From Candidatus Gastranaerophilales bacterium (GTDB lineage Bacteria > Cyanobacteriota > Vampirovibrionia > Gastranaerophilales > Gastranaerophilaceae), in NCBI GenBank assembly GCA_028693235.1, contig JAQUVW010000003.1:1-64000 (forward strand): a stretch of 64,000 bases of DNA, given 5' to 3'. Within the stretch, counting starts at the first letter, position 1, and each line of letters begins with the position of its first letter. The notes under the pieces are model-generated. The model had not been told where the DNA came from and ran no database searches. It saw only the letters and a list, made by a program, of their open reading frames with translations. The position numbers and the translations under genes were made by a program. Below are positions 24,997 through 55,389 of the stretch, one piece after another.

Positions 24997-25002
24997 TATT
25001 AT
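24997..25002 (+). promoter_or_regulatory. possible -10 box next to the start at 25012
   Basis: TATTAT lies 9 bases before the ATG and a TATAAT directly abuts it (25005-25010). No Shine-Dalgarno is present. A leaderless or near-leaderless transcript is suggested. Confidence 0.3.
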
Positions 25003-25011
25003 TATATAATT

Positions 25012-25587
25012 ATGAAGAATTTTAAATATTTTTTAGCCTTAATAATCGTCACGATAGCCTTTTCGGGATACTCAACTGCAGCCGAAGCTCCAAATTATGA
25101 TGAGTTATATTACAACGCACAGCTTTTTGACACTGAGTTTATGCATGATGTTGACCCCTATCAAGACCAAGAATATATGAAATACACTTGGTCGCCTTAT
25201 CCTTTATTTAGAACCAGTTCAACCTTATATTTCAAAAGCTTGACTATCGAGCCAGGATACTATCTTTTGACACCAAGAAACCTAAAAGACAAAGATTACG
25301 TGCTTTTCAAAGACAACGGCAAAGTAAAATTCATCGTCCCTGTCGTAAAAAAAACTATCACAGATGTCGGTTTCTACCAATATCAAGTTCCGAAACCAAA
25401 ACTTACAAAAAGTAAAACCATTGCTCAAAATTTACAAAAATGTTTTTTTAAAAACAAACGTGATTCCGGCAGAATGCCTCCCCCTGACTCTTATATAGAT
25501 GTTTTGGAAGAAGGTAACTACGTCATTATAAAATTTTATTATTCAAATAGTTGCTATTGGCTTTTATTCAGGAAAAATAAATTTTAA
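25012..25587 (+). CDS. hypothetical secreted protein
   Basis: 191 residues, family not recognised. MKNFKYFLALIIVTIAF begins a signal peptide with likely cleavage after STAAEA or nearby (residues 22-26). The mature part is rich in aromatic residues (YDELYYNAQLF, YTWSPYPLF) and basic near the end, and looks like a beta-rich periplasmic or outer-surface protein. The start at 25012 is chosen because it puts the charged residues directly before the hydrophobic segment. Its stop overlaps that of uvrC on the other strand through TTAA. It has no operon partner. Confidence 0.65.
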   Translation: MKNFKYFLALIIVTIAFSGYSTAAEAPNYDELYYNAQLFDTEFMHDVDPYQDQEYMKYTWSPYPLFRTSSTLYFKSLTIEPGYYLLTPRNLKDKDYVLFKDNGKVKFIVPVVKKTITDVGFYQYQVPKPKLTKSKTIAQNLQKCFFKNKRDSGRMPPPDSYIDVLEEGNYVIIKFYYSNSCYWLLFRKNKF

Positions 25588-27416
25588 TCAGATTTCGATT
25601 TATGAAAATAATCATAAACCTTTTGACCTTGCGATTTTTTCAAAAGCAACATCAACTCTTGCACTGGAAGCTTTTTAATCGCTTTAACATCTTTATATTT
25701 TTCAATTAATAATTTTTTATTTTTTTCAAAAAGCCCTTTGATATTATCAAGCTCTGATTGAACTGCAGCTTTGCCACGCAAGGTCCTATGATATGTAATA
25801 GCAAACCTGTGTGCCTCATCTCTTATTCGCTGAAAAAAGTACAAAGCACCTGAATTTAAAGGAAAAAGTATAGGTTTTGTTTTATTCGGAATAAAAACTT
25901 CTTCAATTCTCTTGGCAAGCGAAACTATATTCTGATTTTCACAGCCAAGTTCATCTAATATCGATTTAGCACTCGATAGTTGCCCTTTCCCGCCATCTAT
26001 TATGATTAAGTCGGGGAATTTATCACTTTGAGCTTTCAGGCGTCCGTATCGCCTGCTGACGACTTCTCGCATCGATTGAAAATCATCAGGTTTATCAACA
26101 GATTTTATCTTAAATCTCTTATACTCTGATTTTTTAGGGAAACCGTTTTCAAATACAACCATTGAAGCAACTGTATTTGTACCTTGAATGTGAGAAATAT
26201 CAAAACATTCAACCTTATAAGGGAAAACGCTCAAATTCAGCTTTTCTTGGACATAAGCACCAACTTCATTATAGTCATTTTGTATTTTTGTTAAAGAATC
26301 AATCTGCAACTTTTTCAAATAATAATCTGCATTCTTTTTTGCTAATTCCAAGATATCGTCATTTCTCTTCGATTTTGAAAAATTAATTCTGACTTTTTTA
26401 CCACTCCGGCGTGAAGATAGCCAAGACTCGTAAAGCTCTTTGTCCTCAGGCGTAAACTCTGGAGCTATAATAATTTCATTCGGAATATCAAAATCACTGA
26501 CCAGCTCGTAATATTCTTTTATAAAAGTCATCAACAGCTCCGCATCGCTGTCATAGTCTGAAACATAAAGCTCGAAATCTTTTTTATCAATCAATCTGCC
26601 ATCCCTAATCTGCACCAGTGAAAGGGCACAAATATTAGACTCCTTTGATATTTCAATAACATCTTGATTAACTGATGTATTTTCATAAACAACACGCTGT
26701 TTTTCAATCGTCCTCTGAACATCAAAATAGCTGTCACGGTACCTCGCTGCTTTTTCAAATTCCTCACGTGATGCGAAATAATCCATTTGTTTTTTGAGTG
26801 CCTCGACAAGCTCTGATTGTTTTCCTGATAAAAACAATTCTACATTTTTTATTAATTTTTGATATTCCTCAGGCGAAATAAGCTTTTGACAAGGAGCCAT
26901 GCACCTTCCGATATTATAATATATGCAAGGTCTATCTCTAAACTTTGGAGTTTTACATTGCTTCAGCGGGAATAATTTTTTTAGCAAATCTAACGTTGCA
27001 TACATAGCTCTGCTATTGGTATAAGGTCCGAAATATTTACCTTTCACAGGATTTCTATTACCTTTTCTCGCAACAACAATCCTCGGGTAATCTTCATTTG
27101 TAACAACAAAATAAGGGAATTTTTTGTCATCTTTTAAAAGCACGTTGTATCTCGGTTTGTATTTTTTTATCAAATGAGATTCTAAAATCAAAGCCTCGAT
27201 TTCGGAATTTGTTATAATAAACTCGATTTTTACAATCTTGGGAACTAAAACCCTCAATTTTTCTGATGTGTGTTTTCGATTCACAAAATAACTCGCAACA
27301 CGCTTTTTTAAATTTTTTGCTTTTCCGACATAAATAACAGTCCCTTCCTTATCAAAATACTGATAAGAACCCGGGGACTCAGGTAAAATCTTTAATTGCT
27401 CTGTCAAGTCTTTCAT
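25584..27416 (-). CDS. uvrC: excinuclease ABC subunit C
   Basis: 610 residues. The N-terminal GIY-YIG nuclease has SPGSYQYF and VIYVGKAKNLKKRV; a UvrB-binding UVR segment lies at about 200-240; the C-terminal RNase H-like nuclease has ECFDISHIQGT and LIIDGGKGQL. A reduced helix-hairpin-helix tail ends the protein. UvrC makes both cuts in nucleotide excision repair. The start at 27416 fits the family; 27 further in-frame residues upstream are not conserved. A TAAAAT lies 7 bases before this ATG with no ribosome binding site. Confidence 0.95.
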   Translation of the reverse strand: MKDLTEQLKILPESPGSYQYFDKEGTVIYVGKAKNLKKRVASYFVNRKHTSEKLRVLVPKIVKIEFIITNSEIEALILESHLIKKYKPRYNVLLKDDKKFPYFVVTNEDYPRIVVARKGNRNPVKGKYFGPYTNSRAMYATLDLLKKLFPLKQCKTPKFRDRPCIYYNIGRCMAPCQKLISPEEYQKLIKNVELFLSGKQSELVEALKKQMDYFASREEFEKAARYRDSYFDVQRTIEKQRVVYENTSVNQDVIEISKESNICALSLVQIRDGRLIDKKDFELYVSDYDSDAELLMTFIKEYYELVSDFDIPNEIIIAPEFTPEDKELYESWLSSRRSGKKVRINFSKSKRNDDILELAKKNADYYLKKLQIDSLTKIQNDYNEVGAYVQEKLNLSVFPYKVECFDISHIQGTNTVASMVVFENGFPKKSEYKRFKIKSVDKPDDFQSMREVVSRRYGRLKAQSDKFPDLIIIDGGKGQLSSAKSILDELGCENQNIVSLAKRIEEVFIPNKTKPILFPLNSGALYFFQRIRDEAHRFAITYHRTLRGKAAVQSELDNIKGLFEKNKKLLIEKYKDVKAIKKLPVQELMLLLKKSQGQKVYDYFHKSKSD

Positions 27417-34460: not shown

Positions 34461-35060
34461 TTATCCCTTAATCATTGAATTATAAATAGCCAAAGTTTTT
34501 GACGCCTGCTTATTCTTATTCATTTTTTTATAAGTAAGGGCTAAATTATAAAAGAAATCGGGTTCATCATTTTTTAGCTGAATAGCCTTTATAAAATTGG
34601 ATTTCGCAGATTTGAATTCAGAATCTTTGAGATATGCACAACCTAAATTGTAATAACCGTAAGCAAAGTCTTTCTTGTATTTTACAGCCTGCTGAAAATT
34701 TTGAATAGCAGAAACCGTCTTATTGTCCTTCAAGTATATCAAGCCTAAATTGTAATATGCCTTATAAAAAGTAGGTTCCACTTCAATCGCTTTTTGAAGA
34801 AGAAAAACAGAATCCATTTCTTTGTCATAGTCTTGAGTAATATTTGCAAGCAAGAACCACATCTCAGCGTCCCTATCAGATTCAGGGATTGTTGCAATTA
34901 ACTGGTATGCTTCTTGCAATTTATTAGCGTTATAAAGAGCTATAATTGCCTCTCTGTCCACCGGAGTTTGTATAGCTACCTCATTATCTTCTGCAAACGC
35001 AGAATTGCTACAAAATGTTAAACAAACGAAAATATTTAAGATTAACAACAATTTCTTCAT
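34461..35060 (-). CDS. secreted TPR-repeat protein
   Basis: 199 residues. MKKLLLILNIFVCLTF begins a signal peptide, probably cut after NSAFA. At least three tetratricopeptide repeats follow: FYKAYYNLGLIYLKD, FAYGYYNLGCAYLKD and EPDFFYNLALTYKKM. TPR stacks bind other proteins, here probably in the periplasm. The start at 35060 is selected because it gives a normal signal peptide; the preceding 52 in-frame codons are not signal-like. A TATAAT exactly six bases upstream and no ribosome binding site imply a leaderless mRNA. Confidence 0.8.
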   Translation of the reverse strand: MKKLLLILNIFVCLTFCSNSAFAEDNEVAIQTPVDREAIIALYNANKLQEAYQLIATIPESDRDAEMWFLLANITQDYDKEMDSVFLLQKAIEVEPTFYKAYYNLGLIYLKDNKTVSAIQNFQQAVKYKKDFAYGYYNLGCAYLKDSEFKSAKSNFIKAIQLKNDEPDFFYNLALTYKKMNKNKQASKTLAIYNSMIKG

Positions 35061-35066
35061 GGCAAT

Positions 35067-35072
35067 ATTATA
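35067..35072 (-). promoter_or_regulatory. -10 box 6 bases before the TPR gene ATG
   Basis: TATAAT on the minus strand, then ATTGCC, then ATG at 35060. Transcription should start at or within a base or two of the A of ATG. Confidence 0.5.
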
Positions 35073-35214
35073 GCTAAACTCGATTTTAATTGCCACCTTT
35101 GTTTTAAATATGAATGTTATGTAAATATTTATTGCAAAATCGAGAATTTCTTCAATAATCACTGCTAAAATACGTTTATTATTATATATAGCGCTAAGGA
35201 AAAGTATTGGTACC

Positions 35215-36129
35215 ATGATTTATCTCGATATTGATTTGTCATATCTTGCAAAGTACTTTGATGTCGGAACTCAAAGGATAAACCAGTATGGCTTAAAATC
35301 CATCGATGATATTATGGAAGCAGAAGCTGCTAACGGCAACTCTGCAGCTTCTAATTTTGACTTAAAAGTTCTCAAAGACCCTAAAGCTCTTGTAAAAGTG
35401 TTTAAATTGATGAGCCCTAGAAATCGATTTAAAATTTTGAGAAATATGAGTCAAGAAGATTTGAAATATTTAATGCAGTTCATGGACAAAAAAGACCTCG
35501 TAACAGGATTGAACTACTTTACAAAAGATAAACTCGTAAATTTGATGTACGAGCTTCCTAAAGAAAAAATTTCAAAATGTTTATTCTCTAAATTTTCACC
35601 CAAAAAATTCTTAAAAATGATTCCGGAAAGAGAAATAAACTACTTCTTTGAATCATCAAAATTAGATAAAAATGAGATAATTAAAGAGGTCCAAAACCTC
35701 GAGCCTGACGCATTACAAGGTCTTATGGAAAATATAACAGGACAACCTCAAAATCCGAATTCAGCTCCTGATGCTAAAGAAGTCGGAAAAACTTTGCAGT
35801 CATTATCTCCGCAAAAATTTAAAAAAGCTATTCAATCAATGGACAGAAAGCATAAATCTCAAATAATCTTGGCTTTAACCGAAAAACATCCAGATTTATT
35901 CTGCGAATTTTCTAAAGACGCTTTAATGTTCCCGCTTAAACAACTCGAAAAACCTGAACTTGTCAAAACAACATCTGTTCTTGAACAAGAGGACTTGGTT
36001 GAAATGGTAAGCGAATTACCAGAAGACTTGATGGCAGTAGTTGTTACGCAACTTGACCCTGAAAAATTAGCGGAAGTATTATGCGACAGATTCCAAGATG
36101 TGCTCCAAGATATCGGCTCTCTAGGCTAA
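35215..36129 (+). CDS. MgtE N-domain/FliG-like helical repeat protein
   Basis: 304 residues, all helical, soluble. It holds short two-helix units such as MSPRNRFKILRNMSQEDLKYL, then LSPQKFKKAIQSMDRKHKSQIIL and LEQEDLVEMVSELPEDLMAVVVTQLDPEKLAEVL. This last unit looks like the MgtE intracellular N domain (also used by FliG). There is no transporter or flagellar domain, so it would be a free-standing scaffold. ATG at 35215; a purine-rich AAGGAAAA lies about 15 bases upstream, rather far. It diverges from the TPR gene and converges with the solute-binding protein, with a 4-base overlap at the stops. Function unknown. Confidence 0.65.
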   Translation: MIYLDIDLSYLAKYFDVGTQRINQYGLKSIDDIMEAEAANGNSAASNFDLKVLKDPKALVKVFKLMSPRNRFKILRNMSQEDLKYLMQFMDKKDLVTGLNYFTKDKLVNLMYELPKEKISKCLFSKFSPKKFLKMIPEREINYFFESSKLDKNEIIKEVQNLEPDALQGLMENITGQPQNPNSAPDAKEVGKTLQSLSPQKFKKAIQSMDRKHKSQIILALTEKHPDLFCEFSKDALMFPLKQLEKPELVKTTSVLEQEDLVEMVSELPEDLMAVVVTQLDPEKLAEVLCDRFQDVLQDIGSLG

Positions 36130-36914
36130 TTAGGCAAGTTCCATTTATGTTTAATTTTGCTCAATGTACCGTCATGATTCATGTCATTCAAAACTCTATT
36201 AAGATTAGTTTTTAACGCTAATGTGTCTTCTGAATTTTTAAAAGCAATACCGTATGGCTCTTGCGTCATTCTTGATTGTAATATTTTATAATTAGGATTG
36301 TCCATAATAAAACCAACAAGCAATGAATCATCTGTAGTCAACGCATCGCCTTTGCCTGCTTTGAATGCCTTAAAGGCTTCATCATAATTTCTATAGCCTT
36401 GAGCAATTGCAGATGGAGCAAAGAACCTTAAATTTTTCTCGCCTGTTGTTCCCAATATAACGATGACTTTCTTGCCGTTTAAATCTTTAATGGTTGAAAT
36501 TGAACTGTTTTTTGGAACCAATACAGCCTGACCTGCTACATAATAAGGATTAGAAAAATCAACTATCATCTTTCTTTGCGGGGTTATAGACATAGTCGCA
36601 ATAACCACATCAACATCACCTGTTGTAATAGCTTGAATTCTATTAGCCGGCGTAACTTGTCTGAACTCTATCTTTTTTGAACTACCTAGTAATCTTTTTG
36701 CCAGTTCTCTTGCTATATCAACATCAGCACCTTGCAAAGCACCTTTTGGCGTAATATACCCGAAAGGTTTTGCTTCAAACTGCGTGCCAATTATAATCTT
36801 ATCTCTTTGCAAAATATTTTGATAAACATCTGTTTCCTTTTCAAACTTTGAACAACCTGTAACCATAAAGACAATGGCTAAAAATATCATAGCTAATCTA
36901 TTAAACTTAAACAT
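36126..36914 (-). CDS. family 3 solute-binding lipoprotein
   Basis: 262 residues. A lipoprotein signal peptide ends at VTGC (C21). The rest is the periplasmic binding protein type II fold of amino-acid ABC systems: RDKIIIGTQFEAKPFGY, ADVDIARELAKRLLG, VDVVIATMSITPQRK and DFSNPYYVAGQ. It should capture a polar amino acid outside the cytoplasmic membrane. No permease or ATPase gene is adjacent, so it is an orphan that serves a transporter elsewhere or acts as a sensor. AAGGAGAAA lies before the ATG. Confidence 0.87.
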   Translation of the reverse strand: MFKFNRLAMIFLAIVFMVTGCSKFEKETDVYQNILQRDKIIIGTQFEAKPFGYITPKGALQGADVDIARELAKRLLGSSKKIEFRQVTPANRIQAITTGDVDVVIATMSITPQRKMIVDFSNPYYVAGQAVLVPKNSSISTIKDLNGKKVIVILGTTGEKNLRFFAPSAIAQGYRNYDEAFKAFKAGKGDALTTDDSLLVGFIMDNPNYKILQSRMTQEPYGIAFKNSEDTLALKTNLNRVLNDMNHDGTLSKIKHKWNLPN

Positions 36915-37011
36915 AAATTTCTCCTTGATATTGGTATTAAATCACGCTCAAAGAAATAAATAAAGAAAAGAATTTACACGATTTATTTGATGACTTTATT
37001 TTTTAAATAGT

Positions 37012-37017
37012 TATAAT
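37012..37017 (+). promoter_or_regulatory. -10 box 6 bases before ATG 37024
   Basis: TATAAT, then CTTGGT, then ATG. A TTGATG at 36987-36992 could be a -35 box with long spacing. No Shine-Dalgarno is present; transcription should begin at the start codon. Confidence 0.5.
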
Positions 37018-37023
37018 CTTGGT

Positions 37024-37617
37024 ATGAGAAGAATTTTTCCGATTTTATTTATATTAATTTTCACAACAGGTGCAGGATATGTTGGAAATCTACCAAATAT
37101 CGAAGGTGATTTTGAATACAAAAAAACAACCCCTCAAGTATCAAGTCCGCCATTTACTCCACGGGACAATGACACTGATGCAGAACTCAAAAAAATCCCC
37201 AGAGATAACAAATCTTACATTGAGATTATTGTTAAAAAAGATAAATCTTCCCAATATGCAAACGACACCAACGATATTATACAAATACTTGAAAAATTAC
37301 AAAATTGCTTAGAAAACAAGCAAGATATTCAAAAATTCAACGCAATTGTAAGCAATTTAATCGACCATATATCTTTAATGCAAGAAACCTACAAAAATAA
37401 ACCTGAAGCAAATTATATTTCATACAAAACGTTATTGAACCTCTCTGATGAAGCTAGAAACGTTGCAGTACTAAGAACTGAAGGACAAGTCTACAACAAA
37501 TATTTGCCATACTCCTCATCAGGTGCAGTCTATGCACCATCAAATATTCAAAGATACCTTGATAGACTACTCTCATCGGTCAACACCTCTCTTTACGTAT
37601 TAAAGAATATAGATTAA
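37024..37617 (+). CDS. hypothetical secreted protein
   Basis: 197 residues, not recognised. MRRIFPILFILIFTTGAG is a signal peptide. A low-complexity, proline-rich stretch follows (about 35-50), then a helical region with NDTNDIIQILEKLQNCLE and a C-terminal helix NIQRYLDRLLSSVNTSLYVL. It would be exported. The gene lies 70 bases before another exported protein of unknown function and may act with it. It has a typical near-leaderless start. Confidence 0.65.
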   Translation: MRRIFPILFILIFTTGAGYVGNLPNIEGDFEYKKTTPQVSSPPFTPRDNDTDAELKKIPRDNKSYIEIIVKKDKSSQYANDTNDIIQILEKLQNCLENKQDIQKFNAIVSNLIDHISLMQETYKNKPEANYISYKTLLNLSDEARNVAVLRTEGQVYNKYLPYSSSGAVYAPSNIQRYLDRLLSSVNTSLYVLKNID

Positions 37618-54268: not shown

Positions 54269-54767
54269 AATATTTTTCCCATAAATAAGCCTCTTTTTTA
54301 GAGAATTTTTTACGCTCAAATTCAAAATAATCATTTGGACGATATGGTCTTCGTAAAAGCTTCATGTGGGCTTCTTTCGGTGTTCTATCGGCTTTATGCT
54401 GATTACATTCTTTACAGCAGGCGACAATATTTTCCCAAATATCCGGTCCAAATCTTGATTTTGGAAAAACATGGTCAAGAGTAAGTTCTGACGCAGGAAG
54501 TCTTTTGCCACAATATTGACACGTATAATCATCACGAATAAAAATATTCTCTCTACTAAAAGGCAGTTCCAAACATGGAACCGCCAAATCATAAGTTAAT
54601 CGAATTACTTTTGGGATATAAGTATTGTCTATTTGGATATAGTCATCAATATTATCGAGCAATTTTGAATATTCAGCCTTGCCCTTGATAATCAAGACCA
54701 ATGCCCGCTTCCAGCTCGTAAGATTAAGCGGTTCATCGTCTGAATTTAACAACAATACCTTTGACAT
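54249..54767 (-). CDS. HNH endonuclease family protein
   Basis: 172 residues from ATG at 54767 (an ATG at 54806 would add 13). LLLNSDDEPLNLTSWKRALVL is the family opening. The nuclease part, FIRDDYTCQYCGK, then LTLDHVFPKSRFG (D-H), CCKECNQHK (H and the two-Cys pair), has the HNH fold with zinc knuckles. This stand-alone type is very common in cyanobacteria and other bacteria and is probably not a defence nuclease. The start is chosen to match those family members. It diverges from the chromate transporter gene. Confidence 0.85.
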   Translation of the reverse strand: MSKVLLLNSDDEPLNLTSWKRALVLIIKGKAEYSKLLDNIDDYIQIDNTYIPKVIRLTYDLAVPCLELPFSRENIFIRDDYTCQYCGKRLPASELTLDHVFPKSRFGPDIWENIVACCKECNQHKADRTPKEAHMKLLRRPYRPNDYFEFERKKFSKKEAYLWEKYFNEKVS

Positions 54768-54831: not shown

Positions 54832-54837
54832 TATTAT
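54832..54837 (+). promoter_or_regulatory. extended -10 box 6 bases before ATG 54844
   Basis: TGC-TATTAT, then GACTGT, then ATG. No Shine-Dalgarno is present. The spacing is the same as at 35060 and 37024, and transcription should start at the A of ATG. Confidence 0.5.
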
Positions 54838-54843
54838 GACTGT

Positions 54844-55389
54844 ATGATAAACGTATTTTCTATATATCTCATTTTCTTAAAGTTGGGACTACAGCTTATC
54901 GGAGGCGGGTACGTGATTTTGCCGATGCTGAAAGATGAATTTGTTACACAACATAAAATACTAAAAGAAACTGAAATGATAGATTATGTAACCTTAAGTC
55001 AATGCCTCCCCGGACTAATTTCAATAAATGTTTCTATCTTGATAGGATACAAATTAAAGGGGCTAAAAGGTGCTATTGCTGCAATTTTAGGAGTTATCAC
55101 TTCACCTTTTTTAATAATAATATTTTTAGCAAACATAATTTTATACCACTCAAATAATGTTCTTATTCAAAATATATTTTGGGGCGTTAGGATTTCTGTT
55201 GTTATTTTGCTGTTTATGACAGTTGCGGACTTATTCAAACCAAGTACAAAAGGTGTATTCGGGAAAATAATGTTTTTAGCTGTGACAATCGTAATGCTAA
55301 CCAAAGTTTCACCTGCATTAGTGGTTGTTACTGCAGGGTTAATTGGTTGGCTATATACAAAAAACAGAAGCAAAAAGGCTAATTTATGA
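54844..55389 (+). CDS. chromate transporter, first half-size subunit
   Basis: 181 residues, about five membrane helices. FLKLGLQLIGGGYVILPML and YVTLSQCLPGLISINVSILIGYKLKG match the CHR domain (FxxxGxxxxGGGY...Q..PGP); the second motif has PGL rather than PGP. Half-size CHR proteins work in pairs, and the second is encoded directly downstream with a 4-base overlap. The pair may export chromate or another oxyanion. The start is set at 54844 by the near -10 box; longer in-frame sequence upstream would run through the HNH gene. Confidence 0.87.
   Translation: MINVFSIYLIFLKLGLQLIGGGYVILPMLKDEFVTQHKILKETEMIDYVTLSQCLPGLISINVSILIGYKLKGLKGAIAAILGVITSPFLIIIFLANIILYHSNNVLIQNIFWGVRISVVILLFMTVADLFKPSTKGVFGKIMFLAVTIVMLTKVSPALVVVTAGLIGWLYTKNRSKKANL

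Follow-up and report, generated by a model that had tools for sequence, protein, structure and literature searches.

Leaderless bacterial genes that carry a promoter -10 box a short distance upstream of the start codon and have no Shine-Dalgarno (SD) site are already well described (PMC3160421, PMC3898074, PMC9031893). Zheng et al. 2011 (PMC3160421) surveyed such genes, termed TA-led genes, in 953 bacterial genomes; Cyanobacteria are absent from the phyla listed. For leaderless mRNAs of other bacteria, 70S ribosomes have been described to bind directly to the 5'-terminal AUG (PMC9031893). A search of an available collection of papers for leaderless mRNA in combination with Gastranaerophilales found no report, which is weak evidence of absence. 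The window analyzed here, i.e., a stretch of 64,000 nucleotides (C3:1-64000) from a Candidatus Gastranaerophilales genome of 2.10 Mb in 7 contigs, has a GC content of 34%. A sequence-only reading of the window had proposed that three genes have a -10 box exactly six bases before the ATG and no SD site, and the letters at 35060 (- strand), 37024 (+ strand) and 54844 (+ strand) are as claimed.

The frequency of this arrangement was assessed in the window plus forty 20 kb tiles of the same genome (864 kb, approx. 40% of the genome). Gene calling relied on a simple script based on codon usage in place of a standard gene finder and yielded 708 genes, including 664 with an ATG start. Spacing was defined as the number of bases between the -10 hexamer and the ATG, and the plateau as the mean over spacings 13 to 45; a looser motif allowed one mismatch in the middle three bases of TATAAT. 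Raw-genome counts of TATAAT-N6-ATG alone are misleading, because codon periodicity shifts the background with spacing, and they were thus replaced by gene-level tiles and a reversed-pattern control. An Rfam scan of the 64-kb window gave no match; therefore no known riboswitch or leader RNA accounts for the upstream regions.

The count of -10-to-ATG distances that the sequence-only reading had suggested revealed a sharp peak at six bases. Exact TATAAT boxes at spacing 6 were found for 17 of 663 called ATG starts, as compared to a plateau of 2.7 (P = 6 × 10-9), with 0 boxes at spacing 5, 1 at spacing 7 and no more than 7 starts at any other single spacing. With the looser motif, 24 starts showed a box at spacing 6, as compared to a plateau of 12.2 (only a two-fold excess, P = 0.002) and to 5.1 at the immediately neighboring spacings (P = 1 × 10-9). 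Relatives of the same family showed higher peaks (25 of 337 starts in genome G001 and 11 of 81 starts in genome G083). When all three genomes were pooled, 90 of 1377 starts had a loose match at spacing 6 (plateau approx. 26; 4 at spacing 5), and exact boxes numbered 54 at spacing 6 against 5.7 expected (P = 1 × 10-33), with 0 at spacing 5 and 12 at spacing 7.

As an AT-rich genome (34% GC) places TATAAT near many ATGs, one might hypothesize that striking cases were simply picked from a chance background, and TATAAT-N6-ATG does occur inside genes. Internal in-frame ATGs, before which an equal frequency had been named as evidence against the leaderless reading, nevertheless showed no peak at spacing 6 and only 17 loose matches among 4222 (4 per 1000, as compared to 36 per 1000 at called starts). 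Similarly, no peak at spacing 6 was observed for intergenic ATGs that are not starts (42 of 4536) or for six control hexamers of like composition. Together with the single-spacing distribution of exact boxes and the conservation among orthologues described below, these data make chance exceedingly improbable as an explanation, and for the class as a whole it was rejected on the basis of the internal-ATG and neighboring-spacing controls. Some individual spacing-6 genes, perhaps a quarter of the loose matches, match by chance. Overall, a box at six bases precedes approx. 3.6% of the ATG starts in our genome, 8.7% in G001 (55 of 633) and 13% in G083 (a small sample); spacing-6 genes are missed where the caller picked another start, as happened for 35060, 54844 and 25012.

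The peak was specific for ATG. Starts other than ATG showed no spacing-6 peak (34 boxes for ATG, as compared to 4 for GTG and 6 for TTG). Of the 90 pooled spacing-6 starts, 78 have a T immediately before the ATG, 8 a C, 4 an A and none a G; T was far less frequent before internal look-alikes (21 of 56, 37%; P = 1 × 10-9) and preceded 576 of 1288 other starts. T or C at this position was counted in favor of the leaderless reading, because a pyrimidine-purine initiator predicts such a base. In addition, the best TTGACA-like match 16 to 18 bases above the box averaged 3.3 of 6 positions, as compared to 2.6 in shuffled sequences, and a TGn (extended -10) preceded the box in 32 of the 90 starts. 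The spacing, the T at -1 and the above-chance -35 and extended -10 elements are three independent marks, each of which points to the A of the ATG as the first transcribed base.

These marks also bear on the possibility that the box is not a promoter element, but an AU-rich ribosome-binding or unstructured element within a leadered mRNA, bound for example by protein S1. S1-domain proteins are encoded in the genome, and AU-rich upstream regions have been proposed to help genes without SD sites (PMC5397173). Such an element would not, however, be expected to give a peak that is one base wide and specific for TATAAT, with none for the control hexamers, and the extended -10 TG, the -35-like element at a distance of 17 bases from the box and the T at -1 characterize promoters rather than ribosome-binding sites; we thus regard this explanation as very unlikely.

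The proposal that two initiation modes exist side by side agrees with the data, as an SD site was found at 36% of called starts, as compared to 4% of internal ATGs, and the 16S-like anti-SD tail GGATCACCTCCTTT is kept, occurring once in the assembly. The spacing-6 starts lack an SD site, an absence that is partly forced by geometry because the box takes the position of the SD; no SD-like pentamer was found within reach of starts 35060, 37024, 54844 and 25012.

The genes of the six-base class are thus very probably leaderless and driven by ordinary promoters of the housekeeping sigma factor; we infer their 5' ends and the mode of ribosome binding from sequence. This interpretation, put forward in the sequence-only reading for a few genes, gains support from the one-base-wide peak, the restriction to ATG, the pyrimidine at -1 and the conservation across divergent genomes. 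RNA polymerase with the housekeeping sigma factor would bind the TATAAT box and, with six bases in between, initiate transcription at an A preceded by T or C, this A being the first base of the AUG. The resulting mRNA would have neither a 5' leader nor an SD site, and the ribosome would bind its 5'-terminal AUG directly, while on the remaining genes translation would begin in the usual SD-led way, with a normal anti-SD. For any single gene, a second promoter further upstream could add a leadered transcript.

Several predicted leaderless promoters are associated with other sequence features. A predicted leaderless lexA gene (L041:17335-17376) shows a consensus promoter, TTGACA-N17-TATAAT, which is overlapped by the inverted repeat TTATAGACA-TT-TGTCTATAA, likely a LexA operator over the -10 box. 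For a predicted leaderless TetR-type regulator gene (L044:12415-12445), the palindrome CGAACGTTCG just above the -10 box suggests autoregulation. The starts of comEC and a divergently oriented gene are 22 bases apart (L033:6599, - strand, and L033:6622, + strand), and a -10-like box lies six bases before each ATG, so that their leaderless promoters would overlap in back-to-back orientation; similar divergent pairs were observed in G001.

Gene 35060 (34461..35060, - strand; 199 aa) is predicted to encode a secreted TPR-repeat protein (translation; Pfam TPR), and its putative leaderless promoter has the -10 box TATAAT at 35067..35072 on the - strand (hexamer 35072..35067, read directly as TATAAT-ATTGCC-ATG). 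The closest homologues of the protein are found mostly in Candidatus Gastranaerophilales or Melainabacteria genomes from animal guts. A longer open reading frame starting at 35216 was ruled out, as the orthologous proteins begin at 35060 with a signal peptide. This mechanically defined frame (34461-35216, - strand) would overlap the start of a divergent gene for an MgtE_N-domain protein (35215-36129, + strand), an overlap that is resolved if the predicted leaderless start at 35060 is used.

A total of 109 loci homologous to 35060 yielded 63 non-redundant upstream sequences, with the starts picked by signal peptide only. The box was located at spacing 6 in 51 of these 63 (45 with exact TATAAT), at spacing 7 in 7 and at spacing 5 in 0; an SD site took the place of the box in 2, and 3 showed another arrangement, including one (L066) in which an in-frame ATG located three codons upstream is preceded by a box at spacing 6. 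At a protein identity of 40 to 52%, these orthologues keep a -35-like TTGGAA, the 17-base spacer to the box and the T at -1, while most other upstream positions are not kept. The tetramer TTTA at -19 to -16, four bases above the -10 box, was also strongly conserved (L066-L094, L203-L282).

Polymerases can start 6 to 9 bases below a -10 box (general knowledge), and a box at spacing 7 in some 35060 orthologues could likewise indicate that the promoters are real but that transcription starts 1 to 3 bases to either side of the ATG, giving a leader of 1 to 3 bases or a truncated AUG, with translation proceeding downstream or by a mixed route. The sharp preference for exactly six bases and for T at -1 is what transcription from the A would predict, and the orthologous protein alignment begins at the same methionine, i.e., at the MKK of the 35060 start, with a signal peptide; an offset start therefore seems very improbable, and a start on the A remains our preferred reading.

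For gene 37024 (37024..37617, + strand), predicted to be leaderless and to encode a 197 aa protein with a signal-like N-terminus (translation), the putative promoter has its -10 box TATAAT at 37012..37017 on the + strand (read directly as TATAAT-CTTGGT-ATG). A Pfam search found no family for this protein, and 57 of the 60 genomes in the bacterial family encode a homologue; two syntenic homologues at other loci have the box at spacing 6 and 7. Gene 54844 (54844..55389, + strand) is the first gene of a pair and encodes a chromate-transporter family half protein of 181 aa (Pfam PF02417, E = 5.5 × 10-38). The -10 box of its predicted leaderless promoter, TATTAT with an extended TGC, is located at 54832..54837 on the + strand (TGC-TATTAT-GACTGT-ATG), and its start is corrected to the ATG at 54844 in place of the TTG at 54679. 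Spacing 6 was found in 13 of 30 orthologues, with several more at 7 (by eye) and two with SD sites.

The sequence-only reading had also grouped 25012, uvrC, folP and dprA as close cases. Candidate leaderless gene 25012 (25012..25587, + strand; translation of 191 aa with a signal-like N-terminus, no family found by Pfam search) belongs at spacing 6 itself, with the candidate box TATTAT at 25000..25005 on the + strand (TATTAT-ATAATT-ATG). This is a weaker case; a single gene such as this one could still be a chance match. In G001, the ATG of the orthologous gene is preceded by TAAAAT at spacing 7. In uvrC (ATG at 27416), TAAAAT is located seven bases before the start, with a competing in-frame ATG 9 bases upstream, while folP (46713) has TGG-TAAAAT nine bases before its start and dprA (16208) only TTTAAT, a weak box, at the same distance. 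Among the pooled genomes, 27, 7, 25 and 25 boxes were found at spacings 7, 8, 9 and 11, respectively, so that the counts at 7 and 9 do not exceed the plateau of approx. 26 by more than a single box and the count at 8 falls below it; grouping spacings of 7 to 9 bases with the six-base class thus finds no support in these genome-wide counts. Only spacing 7 has support from orthologues; as it recurs in orthologues of spacing-6 genes, it may represent a tolerated variant.

Among 222 reciprocal best hits between our genome and G001 (median identity 52%), predicted leaderless status was shared significantly more often than expected (odds ratio 6.8, P = 0.002). Genes with a box in both genomes include, among others, ruvC, hemW, proB, purD and the N-acetylmannosamine-6-phosphate epimerase gene, while for several other pairs one genome has a box where the other has an SD site.

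We also compared TATAAT-N6-ATGA with the reversed control across families, using labels f1 to f8 of our own. The motif was approx. six-fold overrepresented in family f1 (919 as compared to 149 for the reversed control; first 15 genomes), and its spacing-seven counterpart was much weaker in raw-genome counts. Within the order, the signal was present in f7, weakly in f6 and in some f3 genomes, and absent in f2 and f4. Family f8 of the same class showed no excess over the reversed control, and neither did 51 genomes of the same phylum outside the class, which we infer from kinship and size to be photosynthetic cyanobacteria (752 as compared to 827, near-zero counts left out). In gene-level tiles, 4 of 142 starts in G013 of f7 were at spacing 6 (P = 0.003), while 2 of 110 in G002 of f2 and 2 of 124 in the same-phylum genome G200 were not significant. 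In genome G174 of f8 (L050-L054, L165-L174), only 18% of starts carry an SD site, and -10-like boxes show a diffuse enrichment over spacings 6 to 8, unlike the sharp f1 peak.

As judged from these motif counts, what is new is the place of the signature among lineages, i.e., strong in Gastranaerophilales f1, present in f7, and apparently absent from f2, f4 and photosynthetic cyanobacteria. On balance, and with some reserve, we favor the hypothesis that strict zero-leader initiation within Cyanobacteriota is limited to certain Gastranaerophilales families, that its gain or amplification postdates the divergence from photosynthetic cyanobacteria, that the sister families f2 and f4 lost or never gained it, and that for individual core genes (ruvC, hemW, proB, purD and the TPR protein) selection maintains it to the exact base. 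If this is true, the lineage represents a natural test of turnover in initiation mode. Closely related genomes also offer leaderless and SD-led versions of one gene for comparison. Box spacing may further serve as a sequence-only marker of leaderless initiation that is good to one base and corrects start codons (e.g., 35060 over 35216), and these data add a gut-bacterial lineage in a phylum without entries in the earlier survey.

Compared to described systems, the genes studied here resemble TA-led genes (PMC3160421) in having TAnnnT or TATAAT approx. 12 bases above the start codon and no SD site, with SD-led genes alongside, in slow switching between leaderless and SD-led states, and in TG before the box, which in that survey occurs in low-GC genomes; the survey gives a range of distances, whereas we observed essentially one value. 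Mycobacterium tuberculosis (PMC3898074) likewise combines a start codon that is the transcription start (here predicted), a pyrimidine at -1 and a purine at +1 with SD-led genes alongside and common divergent promoters. However, 26% of its genes with a mapped start are leaderless, as compared to approx. 3 to 13% by signature here, and it uses both ATG and GTG, while we found no sign of GTG. A preference for AUG only is shared with the leaderless mRNAs of E. coli and its phages (PMC9031893), and this preference, together with the need for an AUG at the 5' terminus, would account for the one-base-wide spacing. While E. coli has few leaderless genes (PMC9031893), the Gastranaerophilales genomes appear to maintain a standing set, with genes of core metabolism and repair among them.
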